From assembly GCF_016820655.1 (NCBI RefSeq), contig NZ_WSFT01000053.1:372001-436000 (forward strand): 64,000 nt of DNA, in the 5' to 3' direction. The notes below the pieces were generated by a model that had not been told where the DNA came from, searched no databases, and was given only the letters and a program-made list of their open reading frames with translations. This stretch comes from Anaeromonas frigoriresistens (GTDB lineage: Bacteria; Bacillota; Clostridia; Tissierellales; SIT17). Every line of letters starts with the position of its first letter. The first letter of the stretch is position 1. This document shows, piece after piece, positions 1,441 through 14,183 of the stretch. Both the position numbers and the translations under genes were made by a program.

Positions 1441-1893
1441 TTACTCCAATAATTTATAAAATATATCCAATATTTCATCTATTTTTTCTGCATCACTAAT
1501 TGCAACAAATACCGTGTCATCACCAGCAATAGTACCTACCACTTCTTTTACCCCTAGGTTATCAATAGCTGATCCTGATATTTGAGCAGCTCCTGGTATA
1601 GTTTTTAATACCAGCAAATGTCCAGCTGCATGAATTGATACGATGGAATTCTTAAAAATATTTATCAATCTATCAGTTATTCCATCTTGATTTTGTCCTA
1701 TAGCAGCATATTTATACTTGCCAGATTTAGACATAACTTTAACTAACCTTAATTCTTTTATATCTCTTGATACAGTTGCTTGAGTTACATCAATTCCAGC
1801 TGATTTTAGATAATGAGCTAGTTCCTCTTGTGTCTCTATTTCATTATGATTAATTAAATCTATTATCTTGCTTTGTCTCACGTATTTTTTCAT
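1441..1893 (-). CDS. argR: Arginine repressor ArgR/AhrC
   Basis: A 150-residue transcription factor that senses L-arginine and controls arginine synthesis and catabolism genes as a hexamer. The N-terminal winged-helix domain (about residues 1-70) contains the ArgR pattern TQATVSRDIKELRLVKV. The C-terminal domain contains GTIAGDDTVFVAI, the arginine-binding and oligomerisation segment. Length is exactly typical. The start at 1893 is set by a GGGGG ribosome binding site, and the gene lies about 20 bases after tlyA. It is placed between tlyA and recN, as in Bacillus and many clostridia, and no arginine genes are nearby. Confidence 0.96.
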   Translation of the reverse strand: MKKYVRQSKIIDLINHNEIETQEELAHYLKSAGIDVTQATVSRDIKELRLVKVMSKSGKYKYAAIGQNQDGITDRLINIFKNSIVSIHAAGHLLVLKTIPGAAQISGSAIDNLGVKEVVGTIAGDDTVFVAISDAEKIDEILDIFYKLLE

Positions 1894-1913: not shown

Positions 1914-2711
1914 TTATAACTTATTATGAGAGTCTCTTACTACTTCTTGAATTTTATTATCTATATTTATATTAGATATCTCTTGAGTAATATAAGCAAT
2001 ATATTCAATATTACCCGTACCACCTTTTATTGGTGAATAATCAATATTAGTTAAAAAGTATCCTAATGAAGTAATAAAACTATTAATATTATCAATTACT
2101 TCAAGATGTATATTCGGATTTTTCACTACACCTTTTTTCCCTATATTATCTTTGCCTGCTTCAAATTGTGGTTTTATAAGTGCTACTATTTCCCCTTGTG
2201 TTTTAATTAATTTTTTAGCTATAGGAAGAACTTTAGTTAAAGATATAAAGGAGACATCAATTGATATAAAATCTACTTTTTCTCCTATATCTTCTACTTC
2301 TAAATTCCTAATATTTGTCTTTTCCATGTTTATTACTTTATTATTTTTAATCAGTTTCTCAGCTAACTGATTATAACCTACATCTACTGCGAAAACTTTT
2401 TTTATATCATTCTGTAGCATGCAATCAGTAAATCCCCCAGTTGATGCTCCAATATCCATTGCTATTTTATCAGTTAAATCTATATTAAAGACTTTAATTG
2501 CTTTCTCTAGCTTATATCCCCCTCTTCCTACATAAGATAAAGGAGGTTCTATTAATTCAACATTAGCATCCTGTGGTACTTTTAATGATGATTTTTTTAC
2601 TATTTTATCATTATATTTTACTAGGCCTTTTTTAATAGCTTTTTGGGCTAATTCTCTACTTTCTACTATTCCTTTATCATTCATCAATATATCAATACGT
2701 ATATATTCCAT
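1914..2711 (-). CDS. tlyA: TlyA family rRNA 2'-O-methyltransferase
   Basis: A 265-residue protein with an N-terminal S4 RNA-binding domain (residues 1-65, with RIDILMNDKGIVESRELAQK) followed by an FtsJ/RrmJ-like SAM-dependent methyltransferase domain (VGRGGYKLEKAI, then DIGASTGGFTDCML as the SAM-binding loop). TlyA homologues methylate ribose 2'-OH groups of 16S and 23S rRNA; some were once called haemolysins. It starts at 2711 behind AGGAGAG and follows dxs by 12 bases, so it is translated from the same message. The same gene in B. subtilis is yqxC. Substrate position cannot be read from the sequence. Confidence 0.94.
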   Translation of the reverse strand: MEYIRIDILMNDKGIVESRELAQKAIKKGLVKYNDKIVKKSSLKVPQDANVELIEPPLSYVGRGGYKLEKAIKVFNIDLTDKIAMDIGASTGGFTDCMLQNDIKKVFAVDVGYNQLAEKLIKNNKVINMEKTNIRNLEVEDIGEKVDFISIDVSFISLTKVLPIAKKLIKTQGEIVALIKPQFEAGKDNIGKKGVVKNPNIHLEVIDNINSFITSLGYFLTNIDYSPIKGGTGNIEYIAYITQEISNINIDNKIQEVVRDSHNKL

Positions 2712-2723
2712 TAAACAACTCTC

Positions 2724-4595
2724 CTAGGCTTTAATACTATTTATAATAGTATCATAGATACCATCTGCATCTAGTTTATGTTTCTTAAATAACTCACTAG
2801 TATTTCCATGTTCAATAAATTCATCAGGTAACCCAATATTTATAAGGTTTCCTTTATATTTGTATTTAAATAATTCATTATTTACAGAGGTAGCTAATCC
2901 CCCGGAAATTACATTGTCCTCTAGTGTTACAACCATATTATACTCATTTGATACTTTCTTTATTAAATCATTATCAATAGGTTTTAGAAATCTAATATTA
3001 ATTAATGTAGGATTCAATCCACTTTCTTCTAATTTTAAAGATGCCTCATAGCCTATATCTACCATTTTACCTATAGCTATAATTGCAACATTTTTTCCTT
3101 CTTTAATCATTTCACCTTTTCCTAAGACTATTTCATTATTAGTTATTAATTCATCTTTTTCAACACTTACTCCTCTAGGATATCTTATGGCAATTGGTCC
3201 ATCATTATATTTATAAGTGAATTCTACCATTTCTTCAAGTTCTTTCTTATCTTTAGGAGCCATAATTATTAAATTGGGTATATGACTAAGATAAGAAAAG
3301 TCAAATACACCATGATGAGTTTCTCCATCATTTCCTACTAATCCAGCCCTATCAATAGCAAAAACTACTGGCAGGTTTTGTAAGCAGACATCATGTAAAA
3401 CTTGATCATATCCCCTCTGAAGAAAAGTAGAATAAACTGCAAAATATGATTTTAGACCTTGAGATGCTAATCCCGCTGCAAAAGTAACAGCGTGTTGCTC
3501 AGCTATACCTACATCAATGAATCTTTTAGGAAGTTTATTCTTAAAATTTTCTAACCCCGTTCCTGATGGCATAGCTGCAGTAATAGCTACAATATCCTTA
3601 TGATTTTTAGCTAGATCATATAATTTATCTCCAAAAACTTTAGAATATTTAACTCCTTTAGTTTTACTAAGTGCTTTACCTGTTTTTAAATCAAAGGCTG
3701 AAGCCCCATGAAACTTATCTGGATTTTCTTCTGCATGCTTATATCCCTTACCTTTTTTAGTTAATACATGAACAATTACGGGACCATTTACTAATTTAGC
3801 TCTATTAAGAGTCTTTATTAATAATGGTATATTATGTCCATCTACTGGTCCTAGATATTTAAAGCCTAGTTCTTCAAATAGTATCCCTGGCAATAAAAAA
3901 TATTTTAGACTATCCTTAGCTCTTTCTGCAGTCCTATACATTGTTTTACCTATAGCAGGTATACTATTTAATAAAGTTTCTACATCATCTTTCATTTTCC
4001 CATAAGTTGGTGCCGTTCTTATTCTATCAAGATATTTAGATAGTCCACCTACATTCTTAGATATAGACATTTCGTTATCATTCAATATTACTATCATTTT
4101 ACTTTTGATATCTCCAGCATGATTTAAAGCTTCGAATGCCATACCGGCAGTCATTGATCCATCTCCTATTATAGAAACAACTTCATTCTTTTCCCCTTTT
4201 ATATCTCTTGCAATAGCCATACCTAAGCCAGCAGATATTGAGGTAGAACTATGCCCGGTTTCAAATGTGTCATGGAAGCTTTCACATCTCTTTGGAAAAC
4301 CACTTAAACCTTCATATTGTCTAATTGTATGCATCCTATCTTTTCTACCTGTCAGAATTTTATGTATATATGATTGATGTCCCACATCCCATATAATTTT
4401 ATCTTCTGGACTGTTAAAGACTTTATGAATAGCTATTGTCAATTCCACAACTCCAAGATTTGAAGCAACATGCCCTCCAGTCTTTGATACGTTATCTAAG
4501 AGGAATTTTCTTATTTCACCACTTAATTTATTTAATTCAGTTATATCAAGTTTTTTAACATCTGAAATACAATTTACTTTATCTAATGTTTTCAT
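2724..4595 (-). CDS. dxs: 1-deoxy-D-xylulose-5-phosphate synthase
   Basis: First enzyme of the MEP isoprenoid pathway; it condenses pyruvate and glyceraldehyde 3-phosphate with thiamine diphosphate. Visible landmarks are GGHVASNLGVVELTIA, the TPP-binding stretch GDGSMTAGMAFEALNHAG, the EQHAVTFAAGLA segment of the pyrimidine domain and the transketolase C-terminal domain. Length, about 623 residues, is normal. I place the start at the ATG at 4595 because the N-terminus then lines up with B. subtilis Dxs; an in-frame GTG at 4610 is possible but has no spaced ribosome site. It shares an operon with ispA, so two isoprenoid steps flank the OLE RNA. Confidence 0.97.
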   Translation of the reverse strand: MKTLDKVNCISDVKKLDITELNKLSGEIRKFLLDNVSKTGGHVASNLGVVELTIAIHKVFNSPEDKIIWDVGHQSYIHKILTGRKDRMHTIRQYEGLSGFPKRCESFHDTFETGHSSTSISAGLGMAIARDIKGEKNEVVSIIGDGSMTAGMAFEALNHAGDIKSKMIVILNDNEMSISKNVGGLSKYLDRIRTAPTYGKMKDDVETLLNSIPAIGKTMYRTAERAKDSLKYFLLPGILFEELGFKYLGPVDGHNIPLLIKTLNRAKLVNGPVIVHVLTKKGKGYKHAEENPDKFHGASAFDLKTGKALSKTKGVKYSKVFGDKLYDLAKNHKDIVAITAAMPSGTGLENFKNKLPKRFIDVGIAEQHAVTFAAGLASQGLKSYFAVYSTFLQRGYDQVLHDVCLQNLPVVFAIDRAGLVGNDGETHHGVFDFSYLSHIPNLIIMAPKDKKELEEMVEFTYKYNDGPIAIRYPRGVSVEKDELITNNEIVLGKGEMIKEGKNVAIIAIGKMVDIGYEASLKLEESGLNPTLINIRFLKPIDNDLIKKVSNEYNMVVTLEDNVISGGLATSVNNELFKYKYKGNLINIGLPDEFIEHGNTSELFKKHKLDADGIYDTIINSIKA

Positions 4596-4634
4596 ATAAA
4601 GGTCACTCACCTTCTAATATTTATTGTTTTAATT

Positions 4635-5228
4635 TTATCTATCCAGTAATTTTATCTTAAATTTATTATCTAATATCATAACAACTTTACCAGTATAATA
4701 AATTATTGTTTTAGAATGCTTTATTGCAATTTCTTTTCCAAGAGCCTTTCCACCTACCGTTAAAGATGCAATAAATCCACTCATTACAACACTTATTATA
4801 GTTAATTCTTTTATTTCGTACATACTAGATATTTTTGAAATAATTATTGCTCCAGCTGCACCACTTATAATTCCACAGATATCTCCTATAACATCATTAC
4901 AAAAATTCGAAACAGGTCCAGCATTTTTAATTAGTTTAATAGAATATCTAGCCGCTGTATTCTTTTTTGCTGCCATAGAGTGAAAGGGCTTTTCTTGAAC
5001 CGCAGCCACAGCAATACCTATTGTATCGAAAAACACTCCTACAAATATAATTAATATTAAAGTTATAAAAGCAAAAAGAAGATCAAAATTTCTCATTATA
5101 TTTTCTGCTAATATACTAACTAATATTGCTAAAAAAAATGTCCAGATAGATATAATTATTATCCATTTATAATTAGTTTTCTTTTTATTATTTTTTCTTT
5201 TCTTAATAGTCTTTTTATATTTCGACAA
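4635..5228 (-). CDS. oapA: OLE-associated membrane protein OapA
   Basis: A 197-residue protein with a very basic N-terminus (residues 4-18 are almost all Lys, Arg or Asn), hydrophobic segments at about 21-41, 50-67, 115-132 and 142-160, and a DxxxD motif (DVIGD, residues 112-116). It has the look of a distant DUF21/CNNM-type membrane domain; relatives are sometimes annotated as Mg/Co transporter-like. Its position directly after a large structured RNA and before dxs is diagnostic for OapA, the protein reported to bind OLE RNA and anchor it in the membrane; I recall a DxxxD motif being described for that family. The start is a TTG at 5228, seven bases after GGAGG. Confidence 0.9.
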   Translation of the reverse strand: MSKYKKTIKKRKNNKKKTNYKWIIIISIWTFFLAILVSILAENIMRNFDLLFAFITLILIIFVGVFFDTIGIAVAAVQEKPFHSMAAKKNTAARYSIKLIKNAGPVSNFCNDVIGDICGIISGAAGAIIISKISSMYEIKELTIISVVMSGFIASLTVGGKALGKEIAIKHSKTIIYYTGKVVMILDNKFKIKLLDR

Positions 5229-5251
5229 AATATACCTCCACTTCTTTTATA

Positions 5252-5295
5252 CTATCAGCTTTATTTAAATATTAATATTTAAATAAAGCTGATAG
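5252..5295 (-). repeat. 44-bp perfect palindrome after OLE RNA
   Basis: Positions 5252-5295 form a perfect inverted repeat centred between 5273 and 5274, with arms starting CTATCAGCTTTATTT. It lies between the OLE 3' hairpin and the oapA ribosome binding site (5235-5239). On the minus strand it is followed by UAUAAAAGAAG, not a U-run, so it is not a classical terminator by itself. Its right arm is shared with the upstream hairpin 5288-5312, so the two hairpins exclude one another. Confidence 0.9.
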
Positions 5296-5312
5296 CACAA
5301 AAAGCTATCAGC
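5288..5312 (-). terminator. OLE 3' hairpin, possible terminator
   Basis: On the minus strand GCUGAUAG (5312-5305) pairs with CUAUCAGC (5295-5288) around a nine-base loop. UUUAUUUAAAU follows. This resembles a weak intrinsic terminator and could define the OLE 3' end, while allowing read-through into oapA and dxs. The 3' arm can alternatively pair with 5252-5259. Confidence 0.65.
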
Positions 5313-5867
5313 GTTAGAATGGTAGCATATTGAGTAAATTTTGCGGCTTGAGGTCTGGCAGGATTTCCCAAATAAGAACTGCCTGTCGCCATAGCAGCGG
5401 TTTCCCTTTAATCCTATCCCTATTAAAATAGAGCCAGATTGCCATTTAGTCCGCACTGCAATCCCCAATATACTTCTTATATGAACAGTCTAGGAGTTTT
5501 CCTCTACAGTCATGCCAATCCTTAGCCTCTTTTGCAAAGTAGGTTTCAACAGCAAAACCGGTCATTTATAGGGCCCCTAAAATTCACAGTCACAACTGTT
5601 ATCCACCTATTTCACTCAAGGCAGGCTACACTGCATGTAGCTTGCACCACATAGCAGGTTATCCTACAAAATAAGTAGGTCTCCACGGAGGTAGGGTCAT
5701 CGCCCGCATGCCGTTGCAGATCGCCCCATCCTCCTTACTCCCAGAAATGACCCCTGACTGGGCGTCACAAGCCATAACCAGGAACTTCATCGATATGCCC
5801 TTTGACGGATTTTTAGCCCCGCCTTCAAAATTGGCTGTACTGACTAGAATACTGCACCATCCTTAGC
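5288..5867 (-). ncRNA. ole: OLE RNA (ornate, large, extremophilic RNA)
   Basis: A gap of about 690 bases between ispA and oapA holds no credible gene but is clearly richer in G and C than the rest of the window and contains many small helices, e.g. GCUACA-UGCAG-UGUAGC and CCUAC-UUAUUUU-GUAGG. The predicted 5' segment 5855-5863 can pair over nine positions (two G-U) with 5316-5324 near the 3' end, closing the whole molecule. Size (about 580 nt) and gene order (folD-xseA-xseB-ispA-RNA-oapA-dxs) match OLE RNA. That RNA, known from anaerobic and extremophilic Firmicutes, forms a membrane-bound RNP with OapA and is linked to ethanol, cold and magnesium tolerance. Exact ends are estimated; I could not run a covariance search (Rfam OLE model). 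Confidence 0.92.
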
Positions 5868-5873
5868 AGGATA

Positions 5874-5902
5874 ATTATATCATATGAATTATTATTATTC
5901 AA
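5874..5902 (-). promoter_or_regulatory. Sigma-A promoter for OLE RNA, extended -10
   Basis: On the minus strand TTGAAT (5902-5897) and TATAAT (5879-5874) are 17 bases apart, and the -10 box is preceded by TGA, giving an extended -10 (TGATATAAT). It lies just past the ispA stop codon and predicts a start near 5867. This lets OLE and oapA be transcribed independently of the upstream folD-ispA message. Confidence 0.75.
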
Positions 5903-5919
5903 ACTGACAACATAGTTCT

Positions 5920-6810
5920 CTAATTATCTCTCACTGTTAAATAATCAGCTAATTCAACAAAAAAAGTTGCTTTATTTTTATCAAATTTACTCATTATTTT
6001 TATTGCTTTATCTCTATAAGTCTCTAGATCAATAATAGATTTATCCATTCCATGAATAGACACATAAGTAGATTTTTCTTTATCAATATCGCTACCGATA
6101 TCTTTACCTAATATTTTTTGATCTCCAACGATATCCAATATATCATCCCTTATTTGAAATGATACCCCTATATACTTTCCATAATCTCTTAATAATTGAA
6201 TTTCTTGTGAATTTGCTTCCCCAATAATTCCTCCAGCTACTAAAGAAGCTTCTATCAATGCAGATGTCTTATTTAAATGAATGAAATCTAAAATTTTTGG
6301 ACTAATCTCCTTGTTTTCAGATATTATATCAACAACTTGTCCTCCAATCATGCCATTAAATCCAGCAGAATTAGCAATCTCATTCATAGCATCTATGAAT
6401 TTATTTGAGTATTTATTTTCAATTACTGTTTTTAACATAATTTCATAAGCATAATTCAATAATCCATCACCAGCTAGTATAGCCAATCCATCACCATACA
6501 CTTTATGATTCGTAAGATTTCCTCTTCTATAATCATCATCATCCATTGCTGGAAGGTCATCATGAATTAAAGAATAAGTATGTATCATTTCCATTGCAAT
6601 AGCAAAAGGTATGGCTTCTTGTACATTTCCATTAACTAATTCACAGCTTTTTAATAGAAGTATTGGTCTCAATCTTTTACCTCCAGCTAATAGGCTGTAT
6701 TCCATCGATTCTAATATTATTTCTTGAGGTATATTGTCTTTAGGAAATACCTTTTTTAATTCTTCTTCTATTAATATTTTATACCTTTTTAAATCTTGTT
6801 GTAAATTCAT
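5920..6810 (-). CDS. ispA: Polyprenyl (farnesyl) diphosphate synthase
   Basis: A 296-residue all-alpha prenyltransferase that condenses IPP with DMAPP/GPP to make farnesyl diphosphate, the precursor of undecaprenyl carriers and quinones. Both aspartate-rich motifs are present: HDDLPAMDDDDYRRG (first DDxxD) around residue 85 and FQIRDDILDIVGD (second) around 215. The GGKRLRP substrate-binding motif is at about residue 43. Start at 6810 behind AGGAGG. Chain length cannot be proved, but size and position after xseB fit the ispA/yqiD orthologue of the xseA-xseB-ispA-dxs operon. Confidence 0.95.
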   Translation of the reverse strand: MNLQQDLKRYKILIEEELKKVFPKDNIPQEIILESMEYSLLAGGKRLRPILLLKSCELVNGNVQEAIPFAIAMEMIHTYSLIHDDLPAMDDDDYRRGNLTNHKVYGDGLAILAGDGLLNYAYEIMLKTVIENKYSNKFIDAMNEIANSAGFNGMIGGQVVDIISENKEISPKILDFIHLNKTSALIEASLVAGGIIGEANSQEIQLLRDYGKYIGVSFQIRDDILDIVGDQKILGKDIGSDIDKEKSTYVSIHGMDKSIIDLETYRDKAIKIMSKFDKNKATFFVELADYLTVRDN

Positions 6811-11072: not shown

Positions 11073-11750
11073 TTAACTTTGCTTCTTCATTATTTTTATA
11101 TCAGAAGTTTTTAATTCAGTTTCAGATGTTACTATTTCTAGTATTTGCATAACTTCATTTTCTGATAGTTCATTTGTAGATACTACTATCCTTGCTCCAC
11201 TGTCACCAATAAATACTAATGCATCTTCAAATCCTTTTGACTTAATTATTCCTTCAACTAGAAGTTCCTTCTCAGTTAACTGACCCACTTCGATAATTTC
11301 CTTTTGAGCACTATCTCTGACACCTTGACTAGTACTATCATTTTTCACGATATCATTTAATCTATCTATTAATTCTGCTCTCATTTTATCTCTTGATAAT
11401 CGATACTCAACAAAATAATTAGTCTTTTCTATATTTTCTTCACTGGTAATAGCAGTTCCTATTTGAGCATTAACTTCTGATGTAATATCGCCAACTTCTG
11501 TATCAATACTATCCACCACTTCTATATCTTCTCCTTCAGCTGAAGTTTCTTCAGTATCTTCTAAATCATTTACTACCTCAACTAAATCACTGTTTGGGTT
11601 AGCAATTTCTGTTAATCCCTCTTCATAACTTTGATAATCTACTGAAGAATCAGTTACAGATTCTTTTGACAGCTGATGATTTATAAAACCTAACATTACT
11701 AACATTAATATTAATGATACTAGATAGATAGTTTTTTTTCTTATTATCAT
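11073..11750 (-). CDS. spoIIIAH: Stage III sporulation protein AH
   Basis: A 225-residue mother-cell membrane protein that binds forespore SpoIIQ across the intermembrane space and forms a ring of the engulfment channel. One membrane segment (about residues 6-24) is followed by an acidic linker and a C-terminal YscJ/FliF-like domain (YRLSRDKMRAELIDRLNDIV ... STNELSENEVMQILEIV). I choose the ATG at 11750, which follows a GGGGGA site; an upstream in-frame Met at 11780 would overlap spoIIIAG. The last gene of the spoIIIA operon. Confidence 0.93.
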   Translation of the reverse strand: MIIRKKTIYLVSLILMLVMLGFINHQLSKESVTDSSVDYQSYEEGLTEIANPNSDLVEVVNDLEDTEETSAEGEDIEVVDSIDTEVGDITSEVNAQIGTAITSEENIEKTNYFVEYRLSRDKMRAELIDRLNDIVKNDSTSQGVRDSAQKEIIEVGQLTEKELLVEGIIKSKGFEDALVFIGDSGARIVVSTNELSENEVMQILEIVTSETELKTSDIKIMKKQS

Positions 11751-11766
11751 TATTATTCCCCCATTT

Positions 11767-12378
11767 TTATTTTTTAACATGAATACTCACCTTATTTCCA
11801 CTTAATCCTAGAACCGTTTTAACAGCTCCATAGATTGTTTCTTTTATTCTTATATCTGATGCACCCTGAGCTGAAACTATCACACCTTTTATCTCGGGCT
11901 TTATTTCTTTTATAGTCATCATAGAATTTTCACTCCCACTTACTACTACTTGTTCTGTGGATTCCTCCCGGGTAACATTTCTATTTCCCCCTTGAGCATC
12001 ATTTTCTGTAGTAATCTCTTTATTATTTGTTTTATTTATTGCTGGAATACTTTCAACCGTCTCTACCAGCGTTATCATCACATCTACTTCACCAACTCCC
12101 TTCATTTGACTTAAAATATTTTCTAATTTTATCTCTAACTCATTAGAGTAATTATTCATGTTGTTCCTAACTTCTTCTTGTATATCATCATTGTCTTTAT
12201 TTGCATTATTGATCACTTCATCTCCTTCATCAAAAAATACAGTTATTGCCAAAAGTATCATTATACCAATTGATATTACCATAACTAAATTTGTGTATTT
12301 TTTATTTTCTGATATTTTTTTTATTAGTCTATTTAAATAATTTTCTTTTTGGGTTGTATCTTTATTATCATTATTCAT
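11767..12378 (-). CDS. spoIIIAG: Stage III sporulation protein AG
   Basis: A 203-residue bitopic protein with one transmembrane segment at about residues 31-49 and an outside domain with the SpoIIIAG ring-building motif region (LENILSQMKGVGEVDVMITL, then EIKGVIVSAQGASDIRIKET). SpoIIIAG forms a large homomeric ring in the mother-cell membrane as part of the feeding channel. Length is a little short of B. subtilis (229). Eleven bases follow spoIIIAF. Expression in the mother cell under sigma-E is expected from the family. Confidence 0.93.
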   Translation of the reverse strand: MNNDNKDTTQKENYLNRLIKKISENKKYTNLVMVISIGIMILLAITVFFDEGDEVINNANKDNDDIQEEVRNNMNNYSNELEIKLENILSQMKGVGEVDVMITLVETVESIPAINKTNNKEITTENDAQGGNRNVTREESTEQVVVSGSENSMMTIKEIKPEIKGVIVSAQGASDIRIKETIYGAVKTVLGLSGNKVSIHVKK

Positions 12379-12388
12379 TTTATCCCTC

Positions 12389-12979
12389 CTAATTTTCCAT
12401 AATACTAATATTCTCTAATGGTATTTTATACTCATCATGAATATAGTTTTGTATTTCCTTATAACTATCATTTTCTACCTGTTTATCTTTATTTTCATCC
12501 TTAGATATTCTAATTTCTTCTACCAAAATTTCATCATTAGATACTTTAGTTTCCTGTTTTTTACTTATACTAATACTTAGGCCATTAATTTCACCATAGG
12601 ACTCTTTTTCATCTGATAGCTCAATATTTATGTTATCTATAATATAATTAAAATTTGTTTCAATAGAACTTCTTATATTATTTTTCAACTTATCGATATA
12701 TAAATTTTCTATTTGATCCTCATTTGTCATAGAGATATTCATCTCCGAGCTTTCCATACTACTATATTTGTCCATGGTCGCAAAAACTTCCTTATCTATA
12801 CTTATGTTATTTGATAACAATTTTATGAATGGATTTAATAAAACAATTATCATTAAAAATCCACCTATCATTTTTATATAACCTTTAAAACTATTATTAG
12901 GTAAAATTGCTTCTAATAAAGCAATAAAAATAGATAAAATTACAATATTTATGATCCATTGTCTTAAGAATTCAATCAT
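12389..12979 (-). CDS. spoIIIAF: Stage III sporulation protein AF
   Basis: A 196-residue protein with two N-terminal membrane helices (about residues 8-25 and 32-52, IKMIGGFLMIIVLLNPF being the family signature) and an extracytoplasmic ring-building-like domain rich in Glu, Lys and Ile. Component of the SpoIIIA-SpoIIQ channel. It starts nine bases after spoIIIAE. The C-terminal half is poorly conserved across the family, so its identity rests on the N-terminus and operon position. Confidence 0.92.
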   Translation of the reverse strand: MIEFLRQWIINIVILSIFIALLEAILPNNSFKGYIKMIGGFLMIIVLLNPFIKLLSNNISIDKEVFATMDKYSSMESSEMNISMTNEDQIENLYIDKLKNNIRSSIETNFNYIIDNINIELSDEKESYGEINGLSISISKKQETKVSNDEILVEEIRISKDENKDKQVENDSYKEIQNYIHDEYKIPLENISIMEN

Positions 12980-12987
12980 TATTCCAC

Positions 12988-14172
12988 CTACCTCATCATC
13001 AAAGTTATATTTCCTGCTCCAACTATTATAGTTATAGAGATAATAAACATTACAGTTACTGTTAATAGCAATCCTAATAGTATAATAAGAGATTTACTTA
13101 TATCATTTAATCCATCTACTATCCGTCCATCAGATATTGGCTCTATAACTGCAGCTGTTATCCTATATACAAAAATTAAAGATATCAATTTAATAGCAGG
13201 TATTATAGTAATAAGAAATAATACTATAATACCTATAACTCCAACTGCATTCTTTAATAATAATGAACATCCAACGACAGTATCCATTGCATCAGAGAGG
13301 AAACCTCCTACTACCGGTATAAAATTGTCAATAGCGAACTTAGCTGTTCTAATAGTAATACCATCTACTTGTGATGCTGTTACCCCTTGGATAGACATGA
13401 TTCCCATAAATATGGTCAATGAAACTCCTATAATCACAATAGATATTTCTCTTAACAAACTTGATATTCTATTTACTTGAACTTTATCTGAAACCTTACT
13501 AACTAAACCCAAAATTGTAGAGAAAAAAATTAATGGTATTATTAAATCCTTAATTAAAGTGCTAAATAAACCTAAAGAACCTAATATTAATGGATGTAGT
13601 AATGCTGAAGAAGCTAGTCCCCCCACAGCCATCAATAAAGCCATTAAGATAGGTATTAAAGCCTGCATAAACACCACCATACTGTCTATAGTAGATTTCC
13701 CTATATCCATAGCTAGTACAAAACTCTTAATTACAATAGAAATAAGTATTATATAAGTAATAAATTGGGCTATATTCGATATAGATTCATTGTCAAAGGC
13801 TTTTTGAAGATTCATCAATATTGCTGATATTATAGCTAATAAAAGAAGTTGTACTATTAAGTCCATATTCTTCATTAATTCATTTAATACTAGTTTCAAT
13901 AGACCATTTAGTATTTTATCTTGTTCAAATATTTTTTCTCCCTTAACTACTTTCTCTATCACCGACTTAAAATCTACTTCTCCAAAGTATTCTTCAGTAT
14001 CATAGTTTATTTCTTTTATTATATTTGTTAATTCCCTTATATTTAAGCTATCCAATTGATTTTCTATAACTTCATAGGGTATATTGCTAGTCTCCTCTTC
14101 TGGTTCTCCATGGGCTGTTGAAGAAACCATTATCAAAATAATTAATAAAATTAAACTCTTTGTTTTTTTCAT
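12988..14172 (-). CDS. spoIIIAE: Stage III sporulation protein AE
   Basis: A 394-residue polytopic membrane protein with a signal-like N-terminus, a short outside segment (residues 25-100) and about seven membrane helices, including the family stretch QALIPILMALLMAVGGLA and TAKFAIDNFIPVVGGFLSDA. In B. subtilis it is needed for forespore maturation and may be the transport core of the channel. The ATG at 14172 is preferred because AAGGTG lies at the right distance; the GTG at 14181 lies inside that site. Only two to four bases separate it from spoIIIAD. Confidence 0.95.
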   Translation of the reverse strand: MKKTKSLILLIILIMVSSTAHGEPEEETSNIPYEVIENQLDSLNIRELTNIIKEINYDTEEYFGEVDFKSVIEKVVKGEKIFEQDKILNGLLKLVLNELMKNMDLIVQLLLLAIISAILMNLQKAFDNESISNIAQFITYIILISIVIKSFVLAMDIGKSTIDSMVVFMQALIPILMALLMAVGGLASSALLHPLILGSLGLFSTLIKDLIIPLIFFSTILGLVSKVSDKVQVNRISSLLREISIVIIGVSLTIFMGIMSIQGVTASQVDGITIRTAKFAIDNFIPVVGGFLSDAMDTVVGCSLLLKNAVGVIGIIVLFLITIIPAIKLISLIFVYRITAAVIEPISDGRIVDGLNDISKSLIILLGLLLTVTVMFIISITIIVGAGNITLMMR

Positions 14173-14183
14173 AATCCACACCT

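Follow-up and report, generated by a model that had tools for sequence, protein, structure and literature searches.

Results

An OLE RNA and its membrane-protein gene lie between ispA and dxs

The window analysed here, a 64,000-nucleotide stretch of the Anaeromonas frigoriresistens genome, carries near its start a minus-strand cluster in the order xseA-xseB-ispA-OLE-oapA-dxs-tlyA-argR, which is the known context of OLE RNA. Its central members are:

5920..6810, minus strand: ispA, polyprenyl synthetase, upstream neighbour of OLE (Pfam PF00348, E 4.9e-57)
5303..5876, minus strand: OLE RNA (RF01071), full length (Rfam 487.5 bits, E 5.5e-140, model 1-616; covariation)
4635..5228, minus strand: oapA, OLE-associated membrane protein A, 197 aa, TTG start (genomic context, motif, predicted fold)
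2724..4610, minus strand: dxs, downstream neighbour (Pfam PF13292, E 1.7e-126)
1914..2711, minus strand: tlyA-type S4/FtsJ methyltransferase, usual OLE neighbour (Pfam)
1441..1893, minus strand: argR, usual OLE neighbour

OLE is a large membrane-bound RNA from stress-tolerant Gram-positive bacteria; to our knowledge it is one of the largest structured bacterial RNAs, and we know of no biochemical function assigned to it. The sequence-only reading of this DNA had placed OLE between ispA and a DxxxD membrane protein followed by dxs, and the gene order bears this out. ArgR is an unpublished candidate OLE partner (PMC12265935). Upstream, on the strand of the OLE cluster, a run of spoIIIA-type sporulation genes (11073-14181), identified by sequence alone, fits a spore-former. 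Elsewhere in the window, a T-box leader (RF00230, 59081-59282, minus strand, 133.9 bits) lies directly upstream of a large gene (59042-56394) that by sequence look alone is alaS-like.

The gap between ispA and the membrane-protein gene (5229-5919, about 690 bases) had been described as lacking a credible gene, as richer in G+C than its surroundings and as carrying many short helices, and all three descriptions stand. The sole open reading frame of at least 60 aa within it is a 67-aa TTG frame (5468-5265); the OLE RNA has a G+C content of 45.8%, where the window as a whole has 28.7% and the genes on either side have 26-28%; and its fold energy of -193.9 kcal/mol is better than that of every one of 100 dinucleotide shuffles (-171.3 ± 6.3 kcal/mol; z = -3.6). 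The covariance-model search on which the OLE assignment had been staked returned RF01071 at 5876-5303, with a score of 487.5 bits where the gathering score is 50 bits, and the assignment thus holds. OLE is present as a single copy in this genome, and each of the four genomes examined from the family carries it.

A MAFFT alignment of the window RNA and 44 relatives was made with no fitting to structure (alignment A1, 45 sequences). The RF01071 pairs were paired in 90.5% of cells, compared to 81.0 ± 0.3% after shuffling and 40-47% when the partners were slid, and 82 of the 131 pairs had changes on both sides. RNAalifold, supplied with no structure, recovered P1, P2 and P3, all three of which are unmodelled in RF01071, and identified compensatory changes in P1 and P3. 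At the level of sequence, 184 of 574 OLE positions are identical to at least 97% of 79 sequences. The idea that the gap is protein-coding, or a merely G+C-rich spacer without an OLE RNA, can point to the 67-aa frame; against an RF01071 match of E 5.5e-140 and the compensatory base changes it is vanishingly improbable, and we rejected it. We likewise rejected a split OLE, with two half-genes far apart, in two genomes (G062 and G068; loci L095, L096, L097 and L098). Both are broken at the same place and the ends of the pieces overlap by about 63 nt, while the breaks in G062 are runs of N, so the split is a scaffold artefact of assembly.

The RNA keeps the published contacts and has a predicted promoter

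The features of the RNA and its 3' flank considered below, all on the minus strand, are:

5874..5902, minus strand: putative sigma-A promoter of OLE, TTGAAT-17-TATAAT, TG before the -10 (consensus scan, 10/12)
5809..5816, minus strand: A-rich L4 loop CUAAAAAU (C61-T68 invariant in A1)
5792..5793, minus strand: U84/C85, likely k-turn residues (T84, C85 invariant in A1)
5663..5679, minus strand: P7 stem, strongly shortened, CCUAC/GUAGG (RF01071 alignment; A1 columns 200-247)
5572..5575, minus strand: P9 terminal GGCC, self-complementary (sequence; conserved in A1)
5433..5438, minus strand: P12.2 5' strand UCUGGC, pairing with GCCAGA at 5359-5354; site of the genus's A-U to G-C change
5420..5431, minus strand: P13 hairpin CUAUUUUAAUAG, GNRA tetraloop lost (sequence comparison; P13 by helix order)
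5288..5312, minus strand: conserved terminator-like hairpin GCUGAUAGC-UUUUUGU-GCUAUCAGC, then UUUAUUU, directly 3' of OLE
5253..5294, minus strand: second hairpin of 19 bp, overlapping the first in the terminator's 3' arm; restricted to the genus; lies immediately before the oapA ribosome-binding site

All of the published dimer contacts are retained, namely the A-rich L4 loop, the L5/L6 loops and the P9 GGCC. In cryo-EM structures the L4 loop is an RNA-RNA dimer contact (PMC12286853), and the P9 GGCC is a dimer kissing loop (PMC12265935). From numbering and local sequence, U84/C85 are likely equivalent to the k-turn residues of Halalkalibacterium halodurans that are needed for OapC binding (PMC9723947).

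An own promoter had also been proposed for the gap. A site matching 10 of 12 consensus positions does lie in the right place; the scan gave four promoter-like sites where 3.0 ± 1.5 are expected by chance, no more than chance would supply, so the evidence for the promoter is weak. The limits given earlier (5229-5910) enclose the OLE RNA and are slightly wide, since the RNA would run from about 5868 to about 5281 if the putative promoter and terminator hold.

OapA has a predicted CNNM fold

We found OLE RNA immediately upstream of the OapA relative in 80 of 80 loci, these being the best relatives kept by the genome scan, a sample of best matches and not of all homologues. The N-terminus of the 197-aa protein is basic; the sequence has four hydrophobic regions and 29 K+R against 11 D+E, and its DxxxD motif is DVIGD (residues 112-116), within an NFCNDVIGD motif that is invariant across 13 OapA relatives. 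Pfam and NCBIfam gave no family above cut-off for it. Its AlphaFold model (pLDDT 81.6) has a CNNM fold, with MtCorB and CorC as the top structural matches: the Z-scores were 13.1 (MtCorB, 7m1t), 12.5 (MtCorB, 7m1u) and 11.8 (CorC, 7cff), versus 8.0 for the next fold, and the MtCorB/CorC matches overall (Z 13.1 to 11.5) superimpose at 2.6-2.9 Å over 126-133 residues. The Foldseek E-value for the fold match was weak (0.013), though the top-ranked folds were all CNNM. A CNNM-like fold, against 7m1u, has reportedly been published for H. halodurans OapA. In several relatives the Pfam CNNM family (PF01595) weakly matches OapA (E about 1e-6; for example G016:C34:45853, directly after OLE), which gives independent support for the link between OapA and CNNM. 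OapA resembles the CNNM-domain proteins in its predicted fold and in the hydrophobic helices of the CNNM domain, and differs from them in having the DxxxD motif and in lacking a CBS or CorC domain. We conclude that the protein at 4635-5228 is OapA, as had been proposed.

The other OLE partners are encoded elsewhere in the genome

The genome encodes an OapB (YbzG) homologue, which matches the PDB entry 7k9b ("OLE-associated protein B") with E 1.7e-13 over residues 11-95 and lies between map and infA, and an OapC (YbxF) homologue, which matches 4lck with E 1.4e-13 in the context rpoC-ybxF-rpsL-rpsG. A second L7Ae protein of the genome is YlxQ-like, and bS21 is encoded as well. As with the known OapB (7k9b) and OapC/YbxF (4lck, 3v7e), both homologues sit in conserved operons, map-oapB-infA and rpoC-ybxF-rpsL. 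All four members of the genus have kept OapB, 73-100% identical to that of the window genome. OapB has been reported to be essential for OLE in H. halodurans.

The P13 tetraloop is lost in all four sequenced members of the genus

The OapB site on OLE comprises P12.2 and the P13 stem-loop (PMC12265935, PMC9723947). We assigned P13 by helix order along the model, as the hairpin that follows immediately on the P12.2 5' strand. A UGGNRACA-type P13 loop is absent from all four genus members (the window, L002, L082 and L083), a point that the sequence-only reading had not raised, and is kept in 20 of 20 further loci of the same order. Across 145 distinct OLE RNAs, 51 of them from a phylum-wide draw, 139 have the P13 GNRA loop in a table read by eye in which short-stem cases were scored as loop-bearing. 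Its retention argues that the loop is under strong selection elsewhere. The six RNAs without it are the four of the genus plus L032 and L189; these two come from other lineages and likewise have G replacing A in P12.2.

The fourth pair of P12.2, elsewhere A-U, is G-C or G-U in six of the six loop-less RNAs and in 6 of the 139 that keep the loop. With the genus counted once, the pair departs in all three independent losses (versus 6/139; Fisher p about 2e-4). That P12.2 and the P13 loop change together suggests that they form one recognition unit. In the genus both partners of the P12.2 pair have changed, from A-U to G-C, a compensatory exchange that preserves the shape of the helix. We considered the genus's OapB substitutions as co-evolution with the loss of the loop and rejected this, because both changes, K to S and Y to T, are also found in G020, where the loop is intact.

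A conserved hairpin marks the 3' end of OLE

Just beyond the end of the RF01071 match, a hairpin at 5312-5288 has a 9-bp stem, a short loop and a U-rich tail (-15.4 kcal/mol); it too was absent from the earlier reading. It is present in 52 of 83 OLE sequences (the window and relatives, one duplicate removed), among which the 9-nt arms are nearly identical, with some compensatory changes, while the loops vary and the flanks are unalignable. Among 120 genomes of the order, 35 have the exact pattern, each of them once; all 35 carry OLE, and the pattern lies at the 3' end of OLE. A reversed control pattern occurred 0 times in the same 120 genomes. G068, whose assembly is fragmented, has the hairpin and the 3' part of OLE together on a separate contig. 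As the exact pattern is found only at the 3' end of OLE, these genomes do not use it as a general terminator. The hairpin is confined to Tissierellales and neighbouring lineages, with 0 of 51 phylum-wide OLE loci having it. A conserved OLE terminator is unmentioned in the OLE papers searched, a set that did not include the 2006 discovery paper.

Between OLE and oapA, at 5253-5312, there are three mutually complementary copies (GCTGATAGC, GCTATCAGC and GCTGATAG), which give two mutually exclusive hairpins in the genus. The second of these, 5294-5253, has a fold energy of -20.1 kcal/mol and one compensatory change in L082/L083. An antiterminator role for it is unlikely, because its 3' arm is made after RNA polymerase passes the terminator; since it is transcribed after the terminator, it is likelier to be a processing or stability element. 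Pairing of the terminator's 5' arm with the invariant CUAGUCAG near the 5' end of OLE was seen by eye and discarded, being within chance and clashing with P2/P3.

MpfA-type transporters accompany OLE in most of the genus

OLE and MpfA are anticorrelated in published work. We reproduced this in the present order, with 0.67 strong CNNM matches per genome in OLE carriers versus 1.66 in genomes without OLE (Mann-Whitney p 6e-10, phylogeny ignored). The window genome encodes two complete MpfA-type CNNM-CBS-CorC proteins (L087:1471-2733 and L088:808-2118), which beside an OLE runs against the usual one or none. Two strong CNNM matches are also present in two of its three genus mates, making three of four members in all, and two or three MpfA are likewise found in four further OLE carriers of the order.

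Discussion

A full-length OLE RNA is encoded here with oapA immediately after it, and the genome also encodes OapB, OapC (YbxF) and bS21. The locus as a whole is best explained as an OLE-OapA locus with a genus-specific change in P13, a reading to which we assign a probability of roughly 0.9. The OLE-OapA pair is confirmed and is ordinary in kind, and its host is one more Tissierellales carrier. Beyond the known model are three features: the loss of the P13 loop with OapB kept, the conserved 3' hairpin, and two MpfA in most of the genus.

The P13 GNRA stem-loop is a typical feature of OLE and not a strictly defining one, as OLE variant 1 RNAs also miss nucleotides of the OapB site (Fernando and Breaker, PMC11332333). 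The OLE described here has in common with RF01071 OLE RNAs (H. halodurans, C. acetobutylicum, C. botulinum) the full-length fold, the conserved core, the dimer contacts, the k-turn residues and the order ispA-OLE-oapA-dxs; unlike them, it has a P13 without a GNRA tetraloop, a very short P7, and the conserved GCUGAUAGC hairpin on the 3' side, outside the Rfam model. In variant 1 (TANB77 clade) P13 likewise often ends without the nucleotides that bind OapB, but P7, P8 and P9 are shorter and the hosts largely lack OapB and OapC (PMC11332333), whereas the present RNA has P8 and P9 and its host encodes both proteins.

What the loss of the loop means for OapB can be read in two ways. In the first, OapB still binds the genus's OLE through P12.2 and the P13 stem, the tetraloop being dispensable and its loss neutral drift. 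The retention of OapB in four of four members, the surviving P13 stem, the compensatory, shape-preserving change in P12.2, and the occurrence of the K to S and Y to T substitutions in loop-bearing G020 (hence no sign of co-evolution) all speak for it; a dispensable loop is harder to square with its presence in 139 of 145 OLE RNAs across the phylum and with the P12.2 A-U pair departing in three of three independent losses and in 6/139 keepers (Fisher about 2e-4). We rate drift at somewhat below even odds. Our tentative alternative, which we hold with similar and likewise less than even confidence, is that the OapB contact at P12.2-P13 has been dismantled in the genus though OapB is kept, that OLE would here work without canonical OapB binding, and that the OLE-specific hairpin at the 3' end would be an OLE element not described before. 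In the account of the locus that we favour, the loss of the P13 tetraloop leaves OapB with binding to domain 2 that is probably weak, altered or absent, and OapB is probably kept for another job; its retention fits a kept role in OLE as well as another role.

A plainer explanation is that the hairpin is an ordinary intrinsic terminator and owes its conserved sequence to shared ancestry alone. Its terminator form and its limitation to Tissierellales and neighbours agree with this, while loops and flanks that have diverged past alignment around nearly identical 9-nt arms, and an exact pattern with a single occurrence per genome in 35 genomes, invariably at the 3' end of OLE with a control of 0, do not; we regard the matter as evenly balanced. 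Replacement of a decaying OLE by MpfA transporters would account for the two MpfA-type CNNM proteins in three of four genus members, above the order's averages for carriers and non-carriers, and for the lost P13 loop and shortened P7. It seems quite improbable, however, for an RNA that scores 487.5 bits over the full model with its helices intact, a compensatory pair in P12.2 and 184/574 positions matching at least 97% of relatives, in an order where four other carriers hold two or three MpfA.

On the reading that we favour, the following working can be proposed, its particle function carried over from H. halodurans. The predicted sigma-A promoter would start a transcript of about 590 nt ending at the 5312-5288 hairpin, and read-through or a second promoter would yield the oapA mRNA. 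By analogy with H. halodurans and Clostridium, two OLE RNAs may dimerise via L4, L5/L6 and the P9 GGCC; an OapA dimer, as a CNNM-like four-helix membrane protein, would serve as their membrane anchor near P2 and P4a, and OapC would fold the k-turn near P5. Such a particle would help the cell to cope with Mg2+/Mn2+, cold, alcohol and carbon stress, and would probably regulate OapA-dependent divalent-metal transport.

An OLE-specific hairpin past the Rfam boundary suggests that, in these lineages, the conserved 3' end has been set a little too early; the hairpin is also a well-defined starting point for studying the link between OLE and oapA expression. A genus with an otherwise intact OLE minus the P13 tetraloop is a natural experiment on the job of OapB. 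If our tentative reading is true, the core particle (RNA, OapA and OapC) is separable from OapB as an accessory partner, and the 3' hairpin may, for instance, set the OLE:oapA ratio or bind a protein.
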